Source: an uncultured Nitrospirota bacterium (GTDB lineage: Bacteria; Nitrospirota; Nitrospiria; Nitrospirales; UBA8639). Taken from it: a stretch of DNA of 64,000 bases. The stretch spans positions 124,001-188,000 of the forward strand of contig CAKZPV010000008.1 in the NCBI GenBank assembly GCA_937139405.1, in the 5' to 3' direction. Below the pieces are notes generated by a model. It saw only the letters and a program-made list of their open reading frames with translations. It was not told the origin of the DNA and ran no database searches. The position numbers and the translations under genes were made by a program. Position 1 is the first letter of the stretch. Every line of letters begins with the position of its first letter. Of the stretch, positions 38,193-50,780 are shown piece by piece.

Positions 38193-39602
38193 TTATTTTG
38201 TTGATAACAGACTCAGCGGTGTAGTGATGTCTATATAGACAATGGCATCAAATTCATCGACCAGATGCGTTTGACTGTAATGGGCATCTATCTCTTCATC
38301 TGGAAGATACATCACACCCACATGGCGTTGCCACCGAGACGAATTAAGCCATTGCACCATCCCAAATGGCTGCTGCTGCAACAGCAGGAAAAAACGAGGC
38401 ACGCCTAATTGATGAAAAATGGCAACGTTACTCTTTGGATGAGCTGGCAAGAGGGACATGACTTTCGCCGGAGCATCCCAATTATCTGAAGCCACAACCT
38501 GTCCTGCATATGTCAGCATGCCCACGGAAAAGACTTGATTAGGATAATGTTGACGGAGTAATTGCCCCACATTCAACTTTCCTTCCTTGGCCATATCTGT
38601 CGCCAGAGCATTGCCCAGATGAGAACTGTGTGCCCAGAGAATGCTTTTGGGATTGTTCAAATGCCTTTGTTGTGCCTTCAGACTTTCCAGCATATGCTGG
38701 TCGCGGATATTCCAGGACATGGCATCACTGTCTTCGCTGTATAAAATTCGATAGTACTGCTCAGTATTTTTCACATTTAAGGCATTTTGTTGAGCCTGAA
38801 AAAATGTTTCACGATTCACGCCATTGCTTGAGTCAGGGCATGGGATCCGACAGTCCATAAAATCACGGTATTGCTGTATCACCTTTGACTCACATGACCG
38901 AGAAGAATCATTGCGAACAGCCTGGGCATATTGATCAATATCATCGTCAAATTCCAAAAAACAATCATAGCGTTGCTGGGCTAGCAGAGCCTCCTTCGGA
39001 AAGAATTTTTTAAGATACTCAACAACCAATCCTTGAGATCGCTTGCTATTGTAGACGTCTATTCCATAGAGGCTCACTTTAGACTTACTGTTTTCGTTTT
39101 GGTTGTTATAGTCTCTCAACCATCGTATGAAATCTAGCATTTCTGTATTCTTCCATACCCAATCAGGGTATTGGTTAAACACTTCCAGTACTTGAATAGC
39201 TTTTTGGGGAATATGGGAATGAATATATTGGTTGAGTTGATAAACCTGAGGCCAACTGCCTTCTATGGCTATCAATCTGAAATTTTTCTCCGTGATTAAC
39301 CGCTTACTGATATTAATACGTTCCTGATAAAACTCATGGCTGCCATGTGTGGAATCACCAATTAATACAAATTGAGCTTTGCTGGCCTTTTCTAGCAAAG
39401 GCGTATAATCATCAGAATGATCGATAGCGGTAATAACTTGTTGCAATTCGCATATTGGCGAACCGGGCTCTAAATGAGAAGGACAGTTTTCTTTTTTGGA
39501 AGACCGAGGATTCATCTCATGACTGTGAATTTGTGGAACCCACCCAGAAATCATGCAAAAAATTGTGCATATGATGGCCGGCCAAAGACTGCGGTATTTC
39601 AT
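38193..39602 (-). CDS. Erythromycin esterase homologue, exported
   Basis: 469 residues. An N-terminal hydrophobic stretch (SLWPAIICTIFCMISGWVPQ) suggests export. FVLIGDSTHGSHEFYQER and RLIAIEGSWPQVYQLNQYI hold the conserved His/Glu residues of the erythromycin esterase (Ere) superfamily, and ILWAHSSHLGNA holds the later His. Authentic Ere enzymes hydrolyse macrolide lactones, but most homologues in environmental bacteria have unknown substrates, so resistance should not be assumed. It stands alone on the minus strand. Confidence 0.8.
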   Translation of the reverse strand: MKYRSLWPAIICTIFCMISGWVPQIHSHEMNPRSSKKENCPSHLEPGSPICELQQVITAIDHSDDYTPLLEKASKAQFVLIGDSTHGSHEFYQERINISKRLITEKNFRLIAIEGSWPQVYQLNQYIHSHIPQKAIQVLEVFNQYPDWVWKNTEMLDFIRWLRDYNNQNENSKSKVSLYGIDVYNSKRSQGLVVEYLKKFFPKEALLAQQRYDCFLEFDDDIDQYAQAVRNDSSRSCESKVIQQYRDFMDCRIPCPDSSNGVNRETFFQAQQNALNVKNTEQYYRILYSEDSDAMSWNIRDQHMLESLKAQQRHLNNPKSILWAHSSHLGNALATDMAKEGKLNVGQLLRQHYPNQVFSVGMLTYAGQVVASDNWDAPAKVMSLLPAHPKSNVAIFHQLGVPRFFLLLQQQPFGMVQWLNSSRWQRHVGVMYLPDEEIDAHYSQTHLVDEFDAIVYIDITTPLSLLSTK

Positions 39603-40077: not shown

Positions 40078-41580
40078 TTACCGGTGGCGTAAATCTTCTG
40101 ACCTATCCGCGATGATGCGGTATTTTTTGAGAATGTTCGGATTGGCTTCTTCTGCTTCTCTTCTATCAAGAGTGATCACGAACCCGTTCGAATCTTCGAT
40201 GACATGATAGTCGCCTTGATGGGCTTCAAACGCATCCACCAGATCATGAATATGGGACACATGCTTTCCATTCACGGATGAAATGATCACGTTTTTTGAC
40301 GCGTGGTAGCCGATATTGAGTTCGTCAGCAAGGACTTTCACCAAAACAAGGACTTGCCGGCTATCATCCAAAGGCTCCCCGTTAAGGTAATAATTGACGA
40401 GTTCCGTTGGCGCATCAACAGCCCAATTTCCTCCAAACTCCAAGAGATAGTTTAACGTCAACGGCTCGAAGACTAGCCCACCGATAATATAATACGTTGG
40501 GGGAATATCATATTGTCTGTGTGGGACAAGACGTTCATAATCAATCGATTGTGTTAATTGAATCGTTAGAGATTGTTCTTTGCCGGCCCTAAGAACTTTA
40601 AGCGTGATAAAGTCATCTATTTGTTTCTGTTGCAATGGGTATGTAAAAAATGTCCTTTCCCCTTTCCTGAATTCGATAGTCCCATCATTTTCTACACGAA
40701 CATCTTCGATCGAAAGAATAACATCTCCTCTTTGGAGTATTCCCGCTCCTGGAGAATCTGGATACACTCTACTCACCAATACCCCGGTCTGATCTTTCTT
40801 CATCAGGAAACTTTTTCGAAGATCGGGATTTTCCATCTGCTGCATGGATACTCCTAAATCAGGAGTTCCATCATGTTTCCCATCCTCAATATCTTTAAGG
40901 AAATGATTAATAACTGGCGCAGGAACCATGTATCCAATGTTGTTATAACTTGCACTTGTCAGACTTTGAAAAGCCACGCCGACTATTTTCCCATCTTTCA
41001 TGACCGGGCCTCCGCTGTTACCTAAATTAATTGGTGCATCAATCTGGCAAGCAAGAAGATAGGCCCCGCTATGAGCATAACTATTATGTTCAACTCTTGA
41101 AACAATACCCTCTGTCAGCGACAACTTGTCTCCTCCGTCTGGAAACCCGTACACGCTGACGGAATCTTTGATCTCTGCAAGATTGCCTAGTTCAAGGGGA
41201 GTGGCATGGGAAAAAAATTCTTTGTCCTCAACTTTAACAATTGCAAGGTCGGTTTCATGTCCAACAATTTCCACTCGAGCCGTATATTTTTTGGCTTGTC
41301 CCGCGCGCCTCACTTGAATAAACATGTGGTCGCTCACGACATGCGCGTTCGTCAAGACTCGCCCACCTGCAATAATACTTCCTGAGCCATGTGTAGTATT
41401 TTGCCCTTTCATGACCCAGGGCTCATGGTAGTTGTATCTGTTGTGAACCGAGTAGAGCTTGACTATGGATTCCTTGATATTCTCGCCAGCGCTGGCAAAA
41501 GAGGAAAACAAAACGGTGAGGGCTAATCCAAAGCTAAGAAGAAAACCGTTGATTCCCTTATTCCTGAGGTTCAATTTCAC
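40078..41580 (-). CDS. Exported Deg-type trypsin-like serine protease with PDZ domains (plant Deg9-like C terminus)
   Basis: 500 residues from a GTG at 41580, where a signal peptide (FLLSFGLALTVLFSSFASA) starts properly. The triad is visible: GSGSIIAGGRVLTNAHVV (His), HETDLAIVKVED (Asp), LGNSGGPVMKDG (Ser). A PDZ domain follows (LVSRVYPDSPGAGILQRGDVILSI). The C-terminal third has VPHRQYDIPPTYYIIGGLVFEPLT, YLLEFGG and LNIGYHASKNVIISSVNG. That is the pattern of the third, PDZ-like domain of plant Deg9-type proteases and their bacterial relatives. The gene overlaps the GIN-domain gene by 23 bases, tying it to the export cluster. It may process or police the exported repeat proteins. Confidence 0.82.
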   Translation of the reverse strand: MKLNLRNKGINGFLLSFGLALTVLFSSFASAGENIKESIVKLYSVHNRYNYHEPWVMKGQNTTHGSGSIIAGGRVLTNAHVVSDHMFIQVRRAGQAKKYTARVEIVGHETDLAIVKVEDKEFFSHATPLELGNLAEIKDSVSVYGFPDGGDKLSLTEGIVSRVEHNSYAHSGAYLLACQIDAPINLGNSGGPVMKDGKIVGVAFQSLTSASYNNIGYMVPAPVINHFLKDIEDGKHDGTPDLGVSMQQMENPDLRKSFLMKKDQTGVLVSRVYPDSPGAGILQRGDVILSIEDVRVENDGTIEFRKGERTFFTYPLQQKQIDDFITLKVLRAGKEQSLTIQLTQSIDYERLVPHRQYDIPPTYYIIGGLVFEPLTLNYLLEFGGNWAVDAPTELVNYYLNGEPLDDSRQVLVLVKVLADELNIGYHASKNVIISSVNGKHVSHIHDLVDAFEAHQGDYHVIEDSNGFVITLDRREAEEANPNILKKYRIIADRSEDLRHR

Positions 41581-42304
41581 CAACTCCGTCAATTTTCTTT
41601 GTGACTTTAGGTGGGTTTCCGTAATAGCGAATATCACCTGCTCCATCTATCTCCGCAATTAGTTTCCTTGATGCATGTACAACGGCCTCTCCTGCACCAT
41701 CAATAAACACCTCTGTTTCTTCGGTATGAAGATTCTTAGCCCGCACGGTTCCGGTACCATCAATTTTCACAAAAAATCTTCCTGCTACCCCGGAGATTCG
41801 AAGATCACTGGCCCCATTGACTGTCGAAGAAAATTTCCGATTGTTCATTTTGGATATGGTGATATCATTTGCACCCTCTGCAGTCAGACGATCAAGATGC
41901 TCCGTCGAAACCTGAACCACAAGGTTCAGTTTAGGACAGATGGATTTGTCGGCTCGAATGGTCAGAATCTGGTCTTTAACCTGGGTAGTGACGTGGGGCA
42001 GTATATTATCATCCCCACGAATGACAAGACTGCTTTTTTTCTTGAAATCAATAACGACTTCGAAAATTCCATCAATCTTTATTTCGGAAAACTGCGTCAA
42101 GGGCCGGTCATCAGTCTGCTCTTTTCCACTTCCCTTGATGCAACCAGTTACAGTACCCATCCGACTGGTACCTCCGTCACCAGTTATTTCAACATTGCCA
42201 TTCTTGTTATCAATATTTATGGAGACCTCTGCATAACCCATGACAACCCCCATCATAAATAAACTACAAGTCATATACGATACGACCCAAAGATATTTTT
42301 TCAT
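41558..42304 (-). CDS. GIN-domain (DUF2807) exported protein
   Basis: 248 residues from the ATG at 42304, with GAGGAG upstream. A longer frame exists but lacks these features. The signal peptide ends near GYAE. The body is the DUF2807/'head GIN' beta-helix-like fold: FSEIKIDGIFEVVIDFKKKSSLVIRGDDNIL, then KLNLVVQVSTEHLDRLTAEGANDITIS, then repeated short rungs with DGTG, DGAGE, DGAGD and DGVGE. Such proteins are exported, some suspected of adhesion. It follows the small gene 42395-42685 within the minus-strand cluster and overlaps the Deg-protease start. Confidence 0.75.
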   Translation of the reverse strand: MKKYLWVVSYMTCSLFMMGVVMGYAEVSINIDNKNGNVEITGDGGTSRMGTVTGCIKGSGKEQTDDRPLTQFSEIKIDGIFEVVIDFKKKSSLVIRGDDNILPHVTTQVKDQILTIRADKSICPKLNLVVQVSTEHLDRLTAEGANDITISKMNNRKFSSTVNGASDLRISGVAGRFFVKIDGTGTVRAKNLHTEETEVFIDGAGEAVVHASRKLIAEIDGAGDIRYYGNPPKVTKKIDGVGEIEPQE

Positions 42305-42394
42305 ACGAATACTCCTCTTTTCAAAAGATGAGTAGACTCCAATGGAATGAGACAAAGCGACGAATAATCGGAGGGAATAGGGAACAACTGAAAA

Positions 42395-42685
42395 CTACGG
42401 TATTTCTGTAAACCGCAAATTAAGGTGATTTCGTTCGAGTAATTGATCTTCCCCTTTCTCTTTTATGCGATACACGATCTTCGTTTTGCCTGTGATAGAA
42501 TCTAAGACAAAAGCACCATGCGCTTTGCCATCTCCCCAGGCAGCGATCCGATAACGGTCAACATCAAGAAGAACCGTTTCTTCTTGGTCTAATAATCTCG
42601 CCCCCATCAATGATAGAACCCCTACCACCACAAAAACTCCCAGGAAAAAATATTTGATCCGCTCCCTGTACTGTTTGTCTGCCAT
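42395..42685 (-). CDS. Small membrane-anchored protein of the export cluster
   Basis: 96 residues from the ATG at 42685 (AGGCGG upstream; GTG at 42697 also possible). A single N-terminal helix YFFLGVFVVVGVLSLMGARLL is followed by a short extra-cytoplasmic domain with AAWGDGKAHGAFVLDSITGKTKIVY, a beta-strand pattern seen in small 'tail' proteins without a named function. Lies between the LPP20-like and GIN-domain genes on the same strand with gaps of 90-140 bases, so probably part of the same cluster. Family not recognised. Confidence 0.6.
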   Translation of the reverse strand: MADKQYRERIKYFFLGVFVVVGVLSLMGARLLDQEETVLLDVDRYRIAAWGDGKAHGAFVLDSITGKTKIVYRIKEKGEDQLLERNHLNLRFTEIP

Positions 42686-42822
42686 GTTCCGCCTCACTTT
42701 TTTACGTATATGAAAGTCTTGGACTCGACTTCACGCCTCCTGACGCCTCCTAAAGACACTTCACGAAAAAGTCGAATAGATTGAGAAATTTCGCACTTGA
42801 TAAATTCTTCAATACTGATTAC

Positions 42823-43560
42823 CTATTTCGCTTTCGCAGTAGCGAAGTCATCAACTTGGGCACCAGCACCTTCGACTTCAATCACTTCCTTTTCTCCAAC
42901 AACCTTCTGGTCCAAGAGATCACCTGCCTCATCAACCTTCAAAGCCATTTTGACCCAAGCGTCTCCATTTTCATGCCAACCAAACTCTGTCACTTCAGCC
43001 AAATAAATGGTCGCCATCACCTTGGTTTTAACAGAATCCGATACTAGCATATAATTTTTCACCGACGTTTGACTCTCAAGGGTAAACCCGACTACTCGTT
43101 TGACCAACTGCTTATAGGCATCAAGTTCCGCAGCCCGCATGGCTCTTAAGGGGCCCGCTTGAGAAGGCGTGGAGGTCGCAAAAGCCACTCGCCTGAACAC
43201 CTTGTTCTTGAGATCTGTGGTCTTCCCATCAATATTTACAATTTCAGGCAATTGTATGGAGGCCGTTACTTTTGCAATATCTTTGGTGTCATCATACACC
43301 ACTTCCTCAAACTTGATACCGGAAATAGTGGCCGATGTTTTACTCTCTGTTGAGCCGACAAAACTTGAGGCAATTAAATTCTCAACTTCCTCTTTCGCCC
43401 TAACTTTTAGTCCATATACTGACTCCACTAAAGACCGCTCTGCCATCACCTTCGCCGCTCGAGTGGTCATGATTCGTTTATTACCCGCAAATCCTGTCTG
43501 AACTAATAACCCCGACACAACCAGGGTCAGTAGAATTTTTTTCCATATATGTATATTCAT
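42823..43560 (-). CDS. LPP20-like exported protein of the CsgG cluster
   Basis: 245 residues with a signal peptide ending GFAG. Two tandem related halves, starting with RIMTTRAAKVMAERSLVESVYGL and LRAMRAAELDAYKQLVKRVVGF, are each followed by a VKxYML/IASSF segment and a beta strand. This is the LPP20/FlgP-like pattern (R-A-A-E-x-DAxRxL). LPP20-type proteins sit at the outer membrane or on flagellar-associated structures. The ATG overlaps the stop of the upstream 114-residue gene (ATGA), so the two are translationally coupled. The context suggests a periplasmic or outer-membrane accessory to the CsgG-like channel. Confidence 0.75.
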   Translation of the reverse strand: MNIHIWKKILLTLVVSGLLVQTGFAGNKRIMTTRAAKVMAERSLVESVYGLKVRAKEEVENLIASSFVGSTESKTSATISGIKFEEVVYDDTKDIAKVTASIQLPEIVNIDGKTTDLKNKVFRRVAFATSTPSQAGPLRAMRAAELDAYKQLVKRVVGFTLESQTSVKNYMLVSDSVKTKVMATIYLAEVTEFGWHENGDAWVKMALKVDEAGDLLDQKVVGEKEVIEVEGAGAQVDDFATAKAK

Positions 43561-43901
43561 TGTTTCTCTCCTTTTTCTGTATCTACCGAATATCCCTGGT
43601 TGAAATTAATCTCCTCGTCTTTTTCAGTCGTGATTGTTTTTTCATAGACATCTATTACGGGAGAGTCATCTTTATAAAAAACATTCGCCTTTAAATCCAC
43701 AGTGCCATTTTCTGGCAGATCTGGAATCTGTTGCACAGCCTTCTTATTTAACTCATCCAATTCCTTCACACTTTCCTCGACCATTTCCAGGTTGCCAGCG
43801 AAAATTTGGTTCCAGGTTATAACCAAGAGCAGAGAGCCAGCGGTCAGGATAGAAAGGAATAACCTTCCTGAAAAATATGCAGTCTTCACAACTATCACCA
43901 T
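43557..43901 (-). CDS. Small exported accessory protein of the CsgG cluster
   Basis: 114 residues. A hydrophobic N-terminal segment (LFLSILTAGSLLLVITWNQIFAG) looks like a signal peptide, and the mature part is short and acidic (NLEMVEESVKELDELNKK; VIDVYEKTITTEKDEEINF). The start overlaps the CsgG-like stop by seven bases and the stop overlaps the LPP20-like start by four, so it is locked between them. In curli and holdfast systems CsgE/CsgF-like small periplasmic proteins occupy similar positions. No sequence match to those is visible, so the role is inferred from context only. Confidence 0.6.
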   Translation of the reverse strand: MVIVVKTAYFSGRLFLSILTAGSLLLVITWNQIFAGNLEMVEESVKELDELNKKAVQQIPDLPENGTVDLKANVFYKDDSPVIDVYEKTITTEKDEEINFNQGYSVDTEKGEKQ

Positions 43902-45421
43902 TCCTCTTCGCTCAGGAATTTCCCTATTCCAGTTCGCTTTGGTCCTGCAACATATGTTGGCTTCTGCGCGACCTGCTTCTCAACTTCTTTTGATTTTGCA
44001 GGCACTTTCTTAGCTACAGGGGCTGCCGCCGCCGGTGCGGCTTCCGGCACTGGATTTTGCTGAGCGAGTGTTGGCTGAGCTGATGGTTGAGGAGCTGCCG
44101 GAGTTGCATCAACAGATGCCGAAGTGCTGGCTTCTCCTGAATCCACTGGTCCAGGCGTAGGTTGCTCCTGCCCTGCCACCTCGGGTGCCGATTCTGTCGC
44201 CGGAACGGCCTCCGTCGGATCAGATACTACTTCATTTGCCGGTTCTTGGGCATTGAGAAGAGCCACCATCTCCTGCTGTCTTGCGCCGGCTTCATAGGAA
44301 ATTGGGATATTGACATAGACCTGCACAAAGGTATCCGAACTTATTTTGCTATCTGAGGAATCAAAATCCTCATCGACTGCTTCTAAAGCCGTTTTTGTTT
44401 TCTCGTCAAGTTCCCCGGTCAGAGGCACATCATGACCATAGATGAACAACCACTGTTGGACCATTTTCGTGACATCAGCCTCGGTCTGGGAAGCGTAAGC
44501 CCTGGCGAGCGCATCAGTCACCGTTGAATCAGGTATGGCATCTTCTCCGAGTAATCGCCAATACGGTACAGCCAGGTATTTCCCTACAATCTGGATCATA
44601 CTCAATTCAACCAAAAGACGAACAGCATGATGACGACCCTGAACCTTTTTGGATGTACCTTTGAAACCAAAAGTCTGGCCAAACAGACTGATGCCTAGCT
44701 CCTTGCCCGCGACACCTTTGAGAACCTCCATGGTATTGACGGCATTGATTTTGGGAATACCAGCCAAGGTTTGAAAATCAAGCATATTAAAATCAAGTGT
44801 GATTCTCGCCAAACCGGCTTTTGCTTCATCCCCATATCGAAGACCAACATTTTTAGAAGGCAAAAAATCACCCGGAAGACTTTTTATTTCTGCTTCAAGA
44901 CTGGCATCAAGATTTTCCCCTTGAGTTACGAGTCCTCGATCAAACTCTGTGATACCACCACTCAACACTACTTCAGGTATTACTTTGTCTTCAAAATTTG
45001 AATACCCCGTTACCTGTTGATTTTGGATGAAGGCTGGGTCATAGGGGATAAAGAGCACATTCCCACCCATTGAGTTCAGCGTGGTTTTGATCATCTCGGT
45101 AATGTCTCTTGGGATCTCACTGCCAGTTGATGCTGCAGCCCCTGTGACGTCGCCGACGGGATTGCTCTGAATCCTTAATAAATCAGTGGAATAGATCTCG
45201 GTCATCAAGCCCAAACGAGGTAGGGCTTCAGTAAAGGACGTAACTTTGACAGCAGGAGCCGTTTCGGGGAGTTCAGCTTCGACTTCTCGTGGATCGATGG
45301 TTGAACAAGAGGCAAAAGAAAACGCCACAGCCCCTATCATCAGTCCCTGAAAGAACCGTGATACGAATCCAGTATCTTTTATTAAAATTCCCTCGGTTCG
45401 TTTTTTTTCAATGGGTTCCAT
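43895..45421 (-). CDS. CsgG/HfaB-like outer-membrane secretion-channel lipoprotein
   Basis: 508 residues from the ATG at 45421, with AGAGGAA upstream. Signal peptide with lipobox ASC, Cys39. Residues about 60-330 show the CsgG-family course: ITEMIKTTLNSMGGNVLFIPYD, then VVLSGGITEFDRGL, then ARITLDFNMLDFQTL, then a Gly-rich NTMEVLKGVAG and HHAVRLLVELSMIQIVG. CsgG forms a nonameric outer-membrane channel for curlin, and HfaB does so for holdfast-anchor proteins. After that come a peptidoglycan-binding-like stretch (YGHDVPLTGELDEKTKTALE) and a ~100-residue Pro/Ala/Glu-rich tail, both unusual for CsgG. The tail may span or bind the cell wall. Confidence 0.72.
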   Translation of the reverse strand: MEPIEKKRTEGILIKDTGFVSRFFQGLMIGAVAFSFASCSTIDPREVEAELPETAPAVKVTSFTEALPRLGLMTEIYSTDLLRIQSNPVGDVTGAAASTGSEIPRDITEMIKTTLNSMGGNVLFIPYDPAFIQNQQVTGYSNFEDKVIPEVVLSGGITEFDRGLVTQGENLDASLEAEIKSLPGDFLPSKNVGLRYGDEAKAGLARITLDFNMLDFQTLAGIPKINAVNTMEVLKGVAGKELGISLFGQTFGFKGTSKKVQGRHHAVRLLVELSMIQIVGKYLAVPYWRLLGEDAIPDSTVTDALARAYASQTEADVTKMVQQWLFIYGHDVPLTGELDEKTKTALEAVDEDFDSSDSKISSDTFVQVYVNIPISYEAGARQQEMVALLNAQEPANEVVSDPTEAVPATESAPEVAGQEQPTPGPVDSGEASTSASVDATPAAPQPSAQPTLAQQNPVPEAAPAAAAPVAKKVPAKSKEVEKQVAQKPTYVAGPKRTGIGKFLSEEEW

Positions 45422-45643
45422 AATTCCTCTTTCCGCAACGTCTCGCTGAATAATTATTGATGTCTCTTTAACCGATCCATTCCCAGAAGCTAAAAAAGGG
45501 CTCATGTGTACATGTCAAAATTATGGACATAGGCTTCCCCAAAACACCTGTCCTAGTGCTGCAGCCCTTACCTGACGGATTCTCTTGCCTTTGCTTGTCC
45601 CAACCCCTTTACACAAACACTGCTGAAAATCAGTGACAGCGGG

Positions 45644-45976
45644 TTAAGGTCTTCCTACATTTACATTAATAACCTTGTCGACATTAGACCCCGGACCTAC
45701 CACAACACTGTTTTCATTATTATCGCCGCTTCCGTCATTGAAATTGGTGTTAGCATTGCCTTCTTTCTGCCGCTTTTGTGAGGTAGCAATCGCGTCTAAA
45801 ACAATGAAGTTAATATTTGTGTCGGTTTTGGTTGCCTGGTCATCAGCACTAATTGCTTCATCCTTATATTTGGAAATACCATCATCTAAATCACCGGCAA
45901 AGACTAACCCAGAAACCGGCAGAACAAATAATAACACCATCGCTAAAAACCCGGTCATCCATACTTTAGCTCTCAT
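45644..45976 (-). CDS. Small exported Asn-rich protein of the CsgG cluster
   Basis: 110 residues with AAGGAGA upstream of the ATG. The signal peptide ends near LVFAG. The mature part has NFNDGSGDNNENSVVVGPGSNVDKVINVNV near the C terminus, Asn/Gly-rich and strand-like as in amyloid nucleators, but no true curlin repeat. It sits between the two repeat-protein genes and the CsgG-like gene on the same strand, after a strong inverted repeat (46030-46063). Possible minor subunit or nucleator; family not recognised. Confidence 0.6.
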   Translation of the reverse strand: MRAKVWMTGFLAMVLLFVLPVSGLVFAGDLDDGISKYKDEAISADDQATKTDTNINFIVLDAIATSQKRQKEGNANTNFNDGSGDNNENSVVVGPGSNVDKVINVNVGRP

Positions 45977-46029
45977 GGGAATCTCCTTATCTCTTGCATT
46001 TTTCTTTTCCCAAACGTTATTTGGCTGTT

Positions 46030-46063
46030 CTGCCTAGATGAGGCAAAACCCTCATCTAGGCAG
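46030..46063 (-). terminator. Strong inverted repeat between repeat gene and cluster (attenuator/processing hairpin?)
   Basis: CTGCCTAGATGAGG (46030-46043) and CCTCATCTAGGCAG (46050-46063) are perfectly complementary with a 6-base loop. No T-tract follows on the minus strand, so this is not a classic intrinsic terminator. It lies in the 109 bases between the small repeat-protein gene and the Asn-rich gene, where it could protect the upstream message or reduce read-through. Confidence 0.65.
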
Positions 46064-46085
46064 AGCATTCTCAAGGACTCTTCAA

Positions 46086-46475
46086 CTATTCTACAACAAT
46101 GGATCCCATATTGGCTTCACTGCCTTTGCCAATCGCCACATTCGCTGATTTGGAAACCTTGGAGTTGTTAATGATTTTCCCTTTGACGTTCGCCTTATCC
46201 AACGTGATCGAGCCCATATTAGCAGTGGCACCTTTACCAATGGCTACGTTCGCTGACTTGTCCACCTTGGAGTTGTTAATGACTTTCCCTTTGATGTTCG
46301 ACTTCTTAATTTTGATAGTCCCCATATTGGCGGTGGCACCTTTGCCAATAGCTACGTTGGCCGACTTTTCAACCTTCGAGTTGTTGATGACTTTCCCTTT
46401 GATGTTTGATTGGCCAAATGCCACAGGTGTGCTGACCAACATTAACGCGACGACAAATGATAAAACAGTTTTCAT
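46086..46475 (-). CDS. Exported protein with three 36-residue NVAIG repeats (minor fibre subunit candidate)
   Basis: 129 residues from the ATG at 46475 (AAAGGAGAGC upstream). A 22-residue signal peptide (ending AFGQ) is followed by three nearly identical 36-residue units, each with NIKGKVINNSKV then SANVAIGKGATANMG. The last unit is one residue short and ends the protein. An alternative start at 46514 has an even better ribosome site but adds a charged leader. Same repeat type as the 653-residue protein at 46792-48753. Likely exported through the CsgG-like channel. A perfect sigma-54 promoter lies at 46607-46621. Confidence 0.8.
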   Translation of the reverse strand: MKTVLSFVVALMLVSTPVAFGQSNIKGKVINNSKVEKSANVAIGKGATANMGTIKIKKSNIKGKVINNSKVDKSANVAIGKGATANMGSITLDKANVKGKIINNSKVSKSANVAIGKGSEANMGSIVVE

Positions 46476-46606
46476 TTTGCTCTCCTTTGGTGAATGATTG
46501 ATTTGTGCTTGCATGATTGCCTCCTTGTTTGAATGTTTAAGATATATGTTCATTTCAGCTACCTTCCTTGTGAATGTTTATGATCAATGCAATACTTTAG
46601 CTTAAA

Positions 46607-46621
46607 GCAAAGGGCATACCA
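46607..46621 (-). promoter_or_regulatory. rpoN-type: Sigma-54 (-24/-12) promoter of the small repeat gene
   Basis: Minus strand TGGTATGCCCTTTGC fits the TGGYAYR-N4-TTGCW consensus with the obligatory GG and GC ten bases apart. The start codon at 46475 (or 46514) follows by about 90-130 bases, leaving room for a 5' leader. Together with the similar element at 48989-49003 this is unlikely to be chance. The enhancer-binding activator is not in the window. Confidence 0.7.
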
Positions 46622-46791
46622 GGACTGAATCGCCGTGAAATAATGTATAGGTCATTGAAATTTCTATGGTTTTTTTGTTTAAACATTTCTCAGTAAATTT
46701 GCAATCATTTAAATTCTTGAAATGACGTTCTCGTTATTGAAAATACTGGCAATACTCTTTTATTTACTCGTTGGCTTCAAAAGATTTCTGA

Positions 46792-48753
46792 TTATTTAAA
46801 GACCACGGAATTTTTATTGGAGGTCTTTCCCCCAACAGCCACATTGGCATTTTGCCCAGATAGTCCACTGAGTGGAATTTTGACATCATTAATGACGACC
46901 CCTGACCCAGAAATGTTATTAGCCCCGCCACCGCCACCTGAATTTTTCATCACGACCGAACCATTATTCGCCTCACTCCCAGAACCTACGGCGACATTCG
47001 TCGCAGTCATTCCAGTTACCGTATTCACAATAGACCCGTTATAACTGCTATTTTCCAGGTTCACTGACCCCAAATTCGCCTTGGCGTTACTCCCTATTGC
47101 CACATTGGTGGCTGCCCCAGTGACCGTCGTATTCACAATAGAACCCTTCATACTGCTGTTTTCTAGGTTGACCGAACTCAAATTGGCTTTGGCATTACTC
47201 CCTATCGCCACGTTTGTTGCCGCACCAGCTGCAGTCGTATTCACAACTTTCCCATCCATGGTGCTATTTTCCATGTTGACAGCCGAAAGATTAGCTTTGG
47301 ATTTATTCCCAATGGCTACATTGGTTACTGCTCCCCCTGCCGCCGTATTAACCACAGTCCCTTTTAATTTACTGCCTTCCAAATTGACTGCGGCGAGATT
47401 GGCTTTTGTATCTTTTCCAATGGACACGTTCGTCACCGCTCCCCCAGCTGCTGTATTGATCACTGTTCCGTCTAGTTCACTGCCTTCCATATTGACCGCT
47501 GCCAAATTAGCCTTGGCCTTTTTACCAATAGCCACGTTCGTCACGGCTCCGCCTGCCGCTGTATTGACCACGGTCCCTTTCAATTTGCTGCCTTCCATAT
47601 TCACTGCGCCAAGATTGGCCGTACTATCTTTCCCGATCGCCACATTGGTGACCGCAGCCCCGACCGCTGTGTTCACGATTGCTCCTGTTGCCTCACTGCT
47701 TTTTAAGCTGGTTGAGCCCAGATTGGCCTTCGTTCCTTTGCCGATGGCCACATTGGTAACTGCCGCTCCTCCTGCAATATTCACCACTGCACCTTTTACC
47801 TTACTGTTCTCCAGACTTGTGGATCCCAAATTGGCCGTACTGTCTTTCCCGATGGCCACGTTGGTGAGTGCTTGGCCGACTGGGGCATTAATAATTGCCC
47901 CACTCACTTCACTCCCCTTGAGATCGGCTGAGCCCAGGTTGGCTTTCGTCCCCTTGCCGATGGCCACATTCGTGACGGCCTGTCCAATGGCGGTATTCAC
48001 GACCGCGCCCTTCACCTTGCTATCTTCCACGCTCGCGGATCCCAAATTGGCCGTACTGTCTTTCCCGATGGCCACGTTGGTGAGTGCTTTACCAACTGGG
48101 GCATTAATGACCGCTCCTTTTACTTCGCTTCCCTTCAAATCGACGGAGCCCAGATTAGCTTTGGTCTCTTTCCCAATCGCCACATTGGTGACGGCCTTTC
48201 CTACTGCTGTATTTGCAATAACGCCTGCAACATTGCTGTCTTCAATTTTGACCGCCCCCAGATTAGCTTCAGTCTTTTTTCCAATTGATACGTTGGTCAT
48301 TGTCTTACTGACCGGAGCATTGATCACCGCTCCTTTTACTTCACTTCCCTTGACTTTTACCGCACCCAGGTTGGCTTCGCTCTCCTTACCAATTGCCACG
48401 TTCACCATGTTGGTGCCTTTAGGAGTATTGGTTACCACTCCAGTTGTTTTGCTATTTTCCAACTTAATAGAACCTAAGTTGGCTTCTGTTTTTTCGCCTA
48501 TACCCACATTAACTGTGTTCTTGCCTTGAGGTGCATTGACAATGACGCCAGACGTCTCACTATCGACCATTTTTATTGAATTTAGATTTGACTCTGTCTC
48601 TTTTCCTATTCCAACATTTACAGAATTTTTACTACCTGAGAGGTTGAGAACCGCTCCTTTTACCTCGGAGTCTGCCAAGGCAGTTGATGGACCTAAAAGA
48701 AGGAAACCACCAACCAATATCAGAAGCATGTTTGTCTCTTGTGTTTTTGTCAT
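46792..48753 (-). CDS. Large exported protein of sixteen 36-residue NVAIG repeats (major fibre subunit candidate)
   Basis: 653 residues from the ATG at 48753, which is eight bases after GGAG (an ATG at 48762 abuts it). After a signal peptide ending TALAD come sixteen tandem 36-residue units with no gaps. Each begins S-E/K-V-K-G-A-V-I-N and carries TNVAIGKDSTANLGS-type sequence, then a 49-residue Gly-rich cap that repeats NANVAVGG. Regular G, N and small residues predict a beta-solenoid; NVAIG...ANLGS also resembles the head repeats of YadA-like trimeric adhesins. No YadA anchor or other secretion domain is present, so export through the adjacent CsgG-like channel is inferred. A sigma-54 promoter lies 240 bases upstream. 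Confidence 0.82.
   Translation of the reverse strand: MTKTQETNMLLILVGGFLLLGPSTALADSEVKGAVLNLSGSKNSVNVGIGKETESNLNSIKMVDSETSGVIVNAPQGKNTVNVGIGEKTEANLGSIKLENSKTTGVVTNTPKGTNMVNVAIGKESEANLGAVKVKGSEVKGAVINAPVSKTMTNVSIGKKTEANLGAVKIEDSNVAGVIANTAVGKAVTNVAIGKETKANLGSVDLKGSEVKGAVINAPVGKALTNVAIGKDSTANLGSASVEDSKVKGAVVNTAIGQAVTNVAIGKGTKANLGSADLKGSEVSGAIINAPVGQALTNVAIGKDSTANLGSTSLENSKVKGAVVNIAGGAAVTNVAIGKGTKANLGSTSLKSSEATGAIVNTAVGAAVTNVAIGKDSTANLGAVNMEGSKLKGTVVNTAAGGAVTNVAIGKKAKANLAAVNMEGSELDGTVINTAAGGAVTNVSIGKDTKANLAAVNLEGSKLKGTVVNTAAGGAVTNVAIGNKSKANLSAVNMENSTMDGKVVNTTAAGAATNVAIGSNAKANLSSVNLENSSMKGSIVNTTVTGAATNVAIGSNAKANLGSVNLENSSYNGSIVNTVTGMTATNVAVGSGSEANNGSVVMKNSGGGGGANNISGSGVVINDVKIPLSGLSGQNANVAVGGKTSNKNSVVFK
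46942..48669 (-). repeat. Sixteen tandem 108-bp units encoding 36-residue repeats
   Basis: The coding sequence is an uninterrupted array of 16 units of exactly 108 bases. Central units (for example SEVKGAVINAPVGKALTN and its copies) are the most alike, outer units more divergent, as in arrays growing by internal duplication. The antisense strand is accidentally open through most of it. Confidence 0.85.
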
Positions 48754-48988
48754 GTTAGTCATCTCCTTTTTTTCTTGGCTTGAACAAAGTATTCTCTAAG
48801 GCCATGCCTTTTCCATACCCCTAACGAACTCCCTATGGATTCATTTAGGAAAAATTTCTGCCATTTTTTCCTGACTTTCTCACAGTAATAAGCGTTTGAA
48901 GCGAATTCTAGCTCTTTGCGGTTAATTAAGTCACGGGGAAAAAATAGGAAATCATTGAATTTCTCTGTTCATAATTCAATTTGATTAA

Positions 48989-49003
48989 GCAAGCAACATA
49001 CCA
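48989..49003 (-). promoter_or_regulatory. rpoN-type: Sigma-54 (-24/-12) promoter of the large repeat gene
   Basis: Minus strand TGGTATGTTGCTTGC is a perfect TGGYAYR-N4-TTGCW match with GG and GC ten bases apart, and shares TGGTATG and TTGCTT with the element at 46607-46621. The start codon (48753) is about 235 bases downstream, so a long leader is transcribed, in which I saw no known riboswitch. Confidence 0.7.
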
Positions 49004-49275
49004 ACAGAAAAATCTTCGAAATTTAGTCAGAATAGCATTAACAATTCGTTGTTTTTTAAAGATTAATCGAAGAAAAAAGGAAAGGTCTCGCACGAGTGGG
49101 ACTTGCTAGAATTACAAACAACTTATCAAAATTTTAAAACCCGATATCAATATAGATACAAGAATGTATCTGAACAGATAAATGGAATAGATTTGGGAAG
49201 GGAAGGAAGGCAACGGGTCAGAGCAATATTAAGAATATCAGGCTTTAGTAGGATGCGATAGACCGGAACGCGAGA

Positions 49276-49338
49276 TTAGATTTTTCGGAAGACCGCAACA
49301 ATGATGGTACCAAGCCACCCTAAAAAAAGAATATTCAT
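49276..49338 (-). CDS. Possible 20-residue membrane peptide
   Basis: ATG at 49338 preceded by GGAAGG with six-base spacing gives MNILFLGWLGTIIVAVFRKI and stop. Single hydrophobic helix with a basic end. Plausible as a small protein but the length is too short to be sure. Confidence 0.2.
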   Translation of the reverse strand: MNILFLGWLGTIIVAVFRKI

Positions 49339-49538
49339 GACAAATCCTTCCATATCTATCTTTATCGGCAGACTGGTCCATTAGGTTAAGTTTTTTCTTT
49401 TTCCTGGCAGTTTTTTTCAATTTTCATCATACACAGGGCCGTAAATCCTAGAAATAGTAGTTCTCTGGCAAGAGAAACCTAAAAAAATCCACTTCATTTT
49501 CGTGGGACCAGGTGTACCAATAAGGCACCGCACAAGAA

Positions 49539-50780
49539 TTACGTTGTAGAAGAGGGTACGGAATGCTGGGATTTTGAAGAAGTGGAAAGATTCTTGATGC
49601 AATCCAAGAGGGTCTCAGCAAGATGACGTTTCGGCGCACGTGGGATCGGATAAGGGGCAGCATTGGATGTAAGAACAATGACTTCATTGGAATCATTCCC
49701 AAAAGCAGAATGTTCCCCACCCACCTGATTGGCAATTAACATATCAAGTTGCTTACGTTGTAGTTTGATTTGTCCATGTTCAATGAGATCCTCGGTTTCG
49801 GCAGCAAACCCAATCATACGTTGATGGGTTCGTTGAGCAGAAAGTGCCAACAAGATATCAGGTGTTCGTTCTAACGGAAGTGCGTCTCCATTCCATTGTT
49901 CTTTTTTCATTTTGTGAGAATACGGTTTTTGGGCTCGAAAGTCTCCAACCGCTGCAGCCATAATCAGCGTCGTGGCCCAATCAAAACGCGCGGTTAAGGC
50001 CTGCAACATCTCATCGGCCGTTACCACTGCTACTCGCGTCACATCCTGAGGACACACAAGATGAGTTGGACCTGAGACTAAGACGACCTCGGCCCCTCGT
50101 GCGGCAACAGCTTCTGCCATGGCATACCCCATCTTCCCAGATGAACCATTGCTCAAAAACCGAACAGGGTCAATGGGCTCCTGTGTAGGACCAGCAGAAA
50201 TCAAGACTCGCTCACCCCGCCAATCCCTTCGAGGTTGCAGAATACCTTGTAAGGTGGCCAGAATGTTTTCTTCCGTGGCCAAACGCCCATGGCCCCATTG
50301 CCCAGAAGCCAGCTCTCCCTTCTCTGGTTCAACAATGGTCGCCCCCCTGTCCTTCAAGGTTTTAGCATGCGCTTGCACTGTGGGATGCAACCACATTTCG
50401 CCATCCATGGCAGGACAAATCACCATTGGACATTGCAGGGTAAGCGCCATCGTTCCTAGAACATTGTCAGCAAGACCTAATGCTAACTTAGCCAGAGTAT
50501 TAGCCGTGCACGGAGCAACCAGCATCAAATCGGCTTGTTCAGGCAAAGAAAGGTGCTTCATATCCTGATGACTCGAAAACAAGTCACAGGTCACCGGCGA
50601 GCCTGATAACACTTCAAAAGTGAGGGGGGCGACGAATCGTGTGGAAGATTCCGTCATCACCACTTGTACCTCAGCTCCTTGCTGAGTCAAAAGACGCAGG
50701 AGTCCAACAGCTTTGTATGCGGCAATACTCCCTGTCACTGCAAGAATCAGTCGCTTACCGGCCAACCGAGAAGATGACAT
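49539..50780 (-). CDS. coaBC: Bifunctional phosphopantothenoylcysteine decarboxylase / phosphopantothenate-cysteine ligase
   Basis: Makes 4'-phosphopantetheine precursor in coenzyme A synthesis. The 413 residues have the CoaC FMN domain first (ILAVTGSIAAYKAVGLLR; ADLMLVAPCTANTLAKLALGLADN with catalytic region; VICPAMDGEMW). The CoaB CTP-binding domain follows (VLISAGPTQEPIDPVRFLSNGSSGKMG; then the Lys-rich EQWNGDALPLERTPDIL). Normal length. Follows rpoZ by 19 bases on the same strand. Confidence 0.93.
   Translation of the reverse strand: MSSSRLAGKRLILAVTGSIAAYKAVGLLRLLTQQGAEVQVVMTESSTRFVAPLTFEVLSGSPVTCDLFSSHQDMKHLSLPEQADLMLVAPCTANTLAKLALGLADNVLGTMALTLQCPMVICPAMDGEMWLHPTVQAHAKTLKDRGATIVEPEKGELASGQWGHGRLATEENILATLQGILQPRRDWRGERVLISAGPTQEPIDPVRFLSNGSSGKMGYAMAEAVAARGAEVVLVSGPTHLVCPQDVTRVAVVTADEMLQALTARFDWATTLIMAAAVGDFRAQKPYSHKMKKEQWNGDALPLERTPDILLALSAQRTHQRMIGFAAETEDLIEHGQIKLQRKQLDMLIANQVGGEHSAFGNDSNEVIVLTSNAAPYPIPRAPKRHLAETLLDCIKNLSTSSKSQHSVPSSTT

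Follow-up and report, generated by a model that had tools for sequence, protein, structure and literature searches.

A cluster of nine minus-strand genes, at 40078–48762 of the DNA analysed here, probably encodes a CsgG-type (type VIII-like) export and assembly system whose substrate is a non-curlin repeat protein that would form a surface fibre or coat. The DNA, referred to below as the window, is a 64,000-nt stretch from an uncultured Nitrospirota bacterium (Nitrospirales, UBA8639; assembly GCA_937139405.1, contig CAKZPV010000008.1, positions 124,001–188,000). An ORF check of the window recovered all nine genes that a preliminary description of the sequence had grouped together: two repeat proteins, a CsgG-fold lipoprotein, three small orphans, an LPP20-domain protein, a GIN-domain protein and a Deg protease. 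That description also reported overlaps of a few bases between neighbouring genes, which is correct for the CsgG-like, 114-residue and LPP20-like genes (7 and 4 bases); the GIN-domain and protease genes instead overlap by about 30–90 bp, varying with the start codon chosen. A near-identical cluster is present in a second Nitrospirales genome (locus L012) and more distant versions occur in more than 12 genomes, so the arrangement is not due to chance. An erythromycin-esterase-like gene (38193–39602; PF05139, 3e-100) adjoins the cluster and is kept beside it in L012, but was not seen there in the other loci.

The two proposed substrates are built almost entirely of one 36-residue unit. The long repeat protein (46792–48762, minus strand; 656 aa) has a signal peptide, about 17 units and a short C-terminal cap, and is proposed as the main substrate. 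The short one (46086–46553, minus strand; 155 aa) has a signal peptide and exactly 3 units, and is proposed as a minor subunit or nucleator. The unit consensus in the long protein is NVAIGxxxxANLGSVxxxxSxVKGxVxNxxxxxxxx. Anchor positions are spaced at exactly 36 residues, as the preliminary description had it (17 anchors in the long protein, the final pair 51 apart; 3 in the short one). In both proteins the signal peptide is followed almost at once by the first unit. Read in phase, mature short repeat proteins consist of a whole number of units: S-x-V-K-G comes almost directly after the signal peptide, and the end is mostly ANMGSVVx[E/K]. Among homologues the unit count ranges widely, from 3 to about 26 without linkers, and the proteins reach nearly 1000 aa. 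The most constant positions over 172 units are S, G, N, N, A, G, A and N, with alternating hydrophobics. Apart from one residue in a single homologue the proteins lack Cys; Trp is almost absent, and aromatics are few. No clustered repeat protein carries a secretion or translocator domain of its own, and the repeats show no evident N22-like signal for secretion.

AF2 models the long protein as a beta-solenoid (pLDDT 82, pTM 0.85; two of five models were poor). AF2 is known to yield confident but unrealistic solenoids for repeats, even meaningless ones (PMC11795689), and the model is therefore given little weight beyond suggesting a beta-rich repeat. A Foldseek search with it returned nothing below E 0.02. 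VIA ranked the beta-helix of the Vag8 passenger first (Z 21.9, rmsd 5.0), a match taken as general solenoid likeness. Whole-protein Pfam and NCBIfam hits to pentapeptide repeats sum scattered matches with no passing stretch; the true period is 36, and the tandem five-residue A(D/N)LXX units of that family are absent. A match of the short protein to LBP_C (Lacto-N-biose phosphorylase C-terminal domain) is taken as chance. Searching PDB sequences with the repeats retrieved chiefly designed beta1-type and pentapeptide-type chains, or nothing, and not FapC. The heads of the trimeric autotransporters YadA and UspA1, left-handed beta-helices, contain an xVAIGxxAxAxG-like stretch, and UspA1 is a weak fold match to the repeat model (Z 10.8, 19% identity); the repeat proteins, however, have a 36-residue period, no membrane anchor or stalk, and no Hep_Hag hit.

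The proposed outer-membrane channel is the 508-aa lipoprotein encoded at 43895–45421 (minus strand). Its layout comprises a lipobox cysteine (Cys39), nearly invariant in 17 orthologues as expected of a lipoprotein, a CsgG-fold domain at about 75–290, a PG-binding-like segment at about 305–370 and a Pro/Ala-rich linker that leads to the C-terminal peptide GIGKFLSEEEW. The window protein itself gives no match to the Pfam CsgG model (PF03783) at E<=1. The CsgG-like identity given in the preliminary description comes instead from the set of 17 orthologues (the window protein and 16 others), 8 of which match the model (best 2.9e-4), and from the fold. Its extra wall-binding-like segment is likewise borne out, PG_binding_1 matching 7 of the 17 (best 1.5e-5).

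An AF2 model of this protein, built on a 17-row alignment, has a mean pLDDT of 58 (70–90 in the core). Its strands and helices follow one another as in CsgG, and a helical segment at about 300–390 is modelled with confidence. CsgG is the best PDB match in two fold searches, in keeping with the CsgG fold on which the preliminary description had made its reading depend: by Foldseek it ranks top at E 6.6e-6 (CsgG making up nearly all of the 26 hits at E<=1e-3), and by VIA-align it ranks top at Z 13.7 (rmsd 5.3, 157 residues aligned). PelC, FlgT, TolB and LptE score nearly as high because the core domain is shared, and hhalign of the channel to four CsgG-family sequences gave only 57%. In the two putative amphipathic membrane hairpin regions (about 164–202 and 236–261) the strands are in the right order, but pLDDT is below 50. 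The models thus support a CsgG fold, the low-confidence hairpins keeping the assignment short of certain, and an oligomeric outer-membrane pore is what we infer from it.

Several smaller proteins accompany the channel. Directly upstream lies p110 (45644–45976, minus strand), an exported 110-aa orphan without a Pfam family and the proposed channel partner. It has a conserved segment after the signal peptide (DLDDGIS...ISxDD...NINFI) followed by a tail, NxNSVVVGxG...GxIIN, and it keeps its place upstream of the channel in L025 and L027, which have no adjacent strong repeat gene. A reading of p110 as half a repeat unit was dropped, the comparison not beating shuffles except in L027. The gene for p114 (43557–43901, minus strand), an exported 114-aa orphan also without a Pfam family, overlaps both of its neighbours; the protein is conserved in 13 loci and is proposed as a periplasmic accessory. 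The remaining cluster members are p100 (42395–42697, minus strand), a small protein with one N-terminal TM-like segment; an exported GIN-domain (DUF2807) protein (41558–42355, minus strand; PF10988 1.3e-29), peripheral but present in many loci; and a Deg/HtrA-type serine protease with PDZ domains (40078–41646, minus strand; Trypsin_2 1.4e-21, PDZ_3 4.9e-46), also peripheral, found in L012, L017, L020, L021 and L023 and proposed to act in quality control.

One link between channel and accessory genes concerns the exported 245-aa LPP20-domain protein (42823–43560, minus strand). The LPP20 domain is detected in 12 of 14 members at E<=0.01 (best 2.2e-10), the window protein itself falling just under the curated cut-off. 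Strong full-length matches to this protein within Nitrospirota occur in cluster-bearing genomes only; the domain alone is found in 43 of 396 Nitrospirota genomes and is therefore not a marker of the system. Channels whose Pro/Ala arm ends in IGRxLxxxEW are found in all 14 loci with an adjacent LPP20-like gene and in none of the 8 loci without one (p 3e-6), where TPR, DUF4384 or other ends replace the motif. This co-variation predicts a physical contact, and the LPP20-domain protein is the proposed partner of the channel's C-terminal peptide.

The 64 kb contain exactly two perfect matches to the sigma-54 consensus TGGYAYRN4TTGCW, where 0.12 are expected, and each precedes one repeat gene. One (TGGTATGTTGCTTGCT; 48988–49003, minus strand) lies 241 bp upstream of the long repeat ORF, its edge coinciding exactly with the end coordinate, 49003, of the region in the preliminary description; the other (TGGTATGCCCTTTGCT; 46606–46621, minus strand) lies 68 bp upstream of the short repeat ORF. 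Neither these promoters nor the co-variation of the IGRxLxxxEW tail with LPP20 formed part of that description. L012 has a perfect site 60 bp upstream of its short repeat gene, a one-mismatch site at the place corresponding to that of the long repeat gene, and a gene for an FHA/sigma-54 activator that is divergent with respect to the long repeat gene. Further sites stand ahead of the repeat genes of L088 and L023 and ahead of the channel gene of L025, but L016, L017, L018, L026 and L028 yielded none. Elsewhere in the source genome (L082:1179-7121, G000:C34), a Ser/Thr kinase, an FHA/sigma-54 activator and a pair of LPP20/DUF4384-like proteins lie together. In L012 a kinase and an activator of this kind lie on the flanks of the repeat cluster, so these two may be regulators of the cluster. 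Activator binding sites may also be present in the long gene-free stretch at 48790–49540 that separates the long repeat gene from coaBC and contains the sigma-54 site.

The distribution of the system ties the repeats to the channel. It is found in scattered soil, sediment and marine bacteria; 18 loci from other genomes, retrieved with the channel as query, include Nitrospirales, Desulfuromonas, Geomonas, Desulfobacteraceae, Methylococcaceae and Campylobacterales records. The order repeat(s)-p110-CsgG-like-(p114)-LPP20-p100-GIN-Deg recurs over many lineages, and its core, repeat-p110-CsgG-like, across phyla. Of 396 Nitrospirota genomes searched, 6 carry the channel; 5 carry the repeats, and every one of these belongs to the 6 (Fisher p 7.6e-11, a value that ignores phylogeny). 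The channel query here was the window sequence plus one relative, and the repeat query included no row from the other four repeat-bearing genomes. In the sixth channel genome the contig ends at the channel, just where the repeats would lie, and MAG assemblies can break inside such repeats (G284). The p110 gene is present in the same 5 of 396 genomes, a count in which only absence elsewhere is informative, as the query included rows from these genomes.

Linkage also holds when the repeats are sought independently of the channel. The preliminary description had made its reading depend on repeat proteins not turning up elsewhere without a CsgG-like neighbour: all 5 Nitrospirota repeat genomes bear the channel, and a repeats-only search of 141 genomes in the order of a Geomonas carrier added two carriers, G469 and G540, in both of which p110 and then a full-length channel follow directly downstream of the repeat. 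No full-length channel was found in 20 repeat-free genomes of that set. Within the window's own genus the system is present in only 2 of 21 genomes, and it therefore seems to have been gained and lost often.

Curli and HfaABD are the closest functional models. Like curli (CsgA–CsgG, type VIII secretion), the cluster combines Sec-exported repeat substrates, one major and one minor, with a CsgG-fold outer-membrane lipoprotein and small exported accessory proteins, and has no ATPase. There are also differences. The repeat is a 36-residue NVAIG/ANLGS unit, whereas the curlin repeat has 22–23 residues; the channel adds a PG-binding-like segment, a Pro/Ala arm and a terminal peptide; and the partners are LPP20, p110, p114, p100, GIN and Deg proteins, with sigma-54 promoters. 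The source genome gave no match to PF07012 (curlin), PF10614 (CsgF), PF10627 (CsgE) or PF03783 (CsgG), while E. coli controls were positive. The absence of curlin in the preliminary description therefore extends to the whole genome, and the cluster is not curli.

HfaB in Caulobacter is a CsgG-like protein needed to bring its exported partners HfaA and HfaD to the surface, where the complex anchors the holdfast polysaccharide (PMC6707917). The Nitrospirota channel might by analogy export repeat proteins that form a patch or coat tying a polysaccharide or S-layer to the outer membrane and not a free fibre. In gene content there is a parallel, since a CsgG-like protein is again accompanied by exported partners and neither CsgE nor CsgF is recognisable, but we regard such an anchor as unlikely: neither the cluster nor the 64-kb window showed holdfast genes or genes for making or exporting a polysaccharide, and repeat proteins of up to nearly 1000 aa with so variable a number of units fit it poorly. 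HfaABD was compared by description, and no model bearing the name Hfa in NCBIfam or Pfam matched a cluster product. It is also quite improbable that the CsgG-like and LPP20-like proteins form a ring in the periplasm or outer membrane that has no part in export, comparable to the Vibrio flagellar H-ring (FlgT, FlgP, FlgO), in which FlgT acts with the LPP20-domain protein FlgP, the repeats then being periplasmic or unrelated cargo. FlgT (3w1e), which shares the CsgG-like core fold, ranks high in the fold search, as does a ring structure from 2025 (8z5n), at Z 12.3 vs 13.7 for CsgG, and an LPP20 protein is encoded next to the channel. Yet CsgG ranks first in both Foldseek and VIA, the neighbourhood showed no flagellar genes, the channel occurs with p110 and repeat in several loci that have no adjacent LPP20 partner, and the strict linkage of the channel to repeat substrates and p110 would be left unexplained.

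The repeat itself invites comparison with the Fap system (FapA–F), which also has two repeat proteins, FapB and FapC, with a unit of about 36 residues. The stretch NVAIGxGNxANLGS is similar to a motif described for FapC, gasGN(h)G(h)N(h)aaG*gNqQN(h) (PMC12392863), and has N(h)A-GxGN in common with it; the N-h-A-x-G-x-G-N core also resembles solved FapC chains, and the best pairwise scores exceed all 300 shuffles for FapC repeats 1 and 2. A relation to FapC is suggestive only: the unit profile misses FapC (9nqd, 9u4u) in the PDB even at E<=10, with a control run alongside, and HMM scores stay within those of shuffled sequences, of which 44, 86 and 291 in 2000 score as high. Nearly all FapB and FapC proteins contain three repeats (PMC12822426), against 3 to about 26 linker-free units here, and no cluster product matched the FapF barrel or FapD protease families in Pfam or NCBIfam. 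That a distantly related Fap-like Greek-key amyloid has been taken up as substrate by a CsgG-type pore is very improbable. Hardly credible is the suggestion that the genes are mere operon neighbours, the repeat proteins being a stress or periplasmic family that goes with the Deg and GIN genes while the CsgG-like protein does something else: many loci do include Deg and GIN genes, but the constant travelling core is repeat-p110-channel and not repeat-protease.

The evidence as a whole supports the reading of the cluster in the preliminary description as an uncharacterised surface-fibre system, the surface fibre itself being what we infer. A search of open-licence PMC papers found no description of the cluster, which does not prove that none exists. 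In the CsgG-type export mechanism proposed here, sigma-54 would switch the repeat genes on and Sec would export their products to the periplasm, where p114 might serve as an accessory and the Deg protease in quality control. The CsgG-fold lipoprotein would form an oligomeric outer-membrane pore, tethered to peptidoglycan through the PG-binding-like segment, with a Pro/Ala-rich arm whose terminal peptide would dock the LPP20-domain protein. p110 might act as a pore adaptor, much as CsgF does for CsgG. The repeat proteins would cross the pore unfolded and then fold outside as stacked beta-rich units, assembling on p110 and the short repeat protein. The long repeat protein would make up the body of the fibre or coat, and the short one might be a minor subunit or nucleator. 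A bolder version is tentative, and we would put it at somewhat below an even chance: a third dedicated class of surface fibre, possibly a functional amyloid, beside curli and Fap, with a CsgG-fold pore that bears a PG-binding segment and docking tail, linker-free proteins of 36-residue units that stack into fibres, p110 as nucleating adaptor, and sigma-54 control.

Surveys of functional amyloids begin from curlin or Fap repeats together with known operon genes (PMC12822426). Such surveys would be expected to miss this cluster, whose channel protein in the window is not picked up by the Pfam CsgG model. If the export reading is right, CsgG-type export handles a second repeat substrate that is unrelated to the first, and the LPP20 partner, p110 and p114 reveal what a CsgG channel uses without CsgE and CsgF. 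The cluster offers a small and testable group of parts with which to ask how such channels select their substrates, and a possible source of a regular repeat protein for materials or nanopore work.

Related genes also occur outside the complete cluster. Divergent relatives of the channel (L024, L025, L027 and the Azospirillum plasmid locus L089) carry DUF4384 or other ends, with no strong NVAIG gene next to them, which suggests a wider family of CsgG plus PG-binding-like proteins with other substrates. A plasmid search recovered two Azospirillum DUF4384 relatives, 23–25% identical to the channel, with no repeat neighbour annotated in the one locus examined; the same search with the repeats gave no matches. 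Unlinked extra repeat genes were seen in genomes with the system (the source genome and G417–G419), as one would expect if one machine serves several substrates. The one in the source genome (L081:9140-9979; G000:C50, about 197140–197979) encodes a 279-aa protein with a non-repeat N-terminal part followed by a few degenerate units. A relative in the same family (L030, G024) carries a csgEFG set and a curlin-like ORF, apparently true curli, and it looks as though both curli and the NVAIG-repeat system occur in the family of the source organism.
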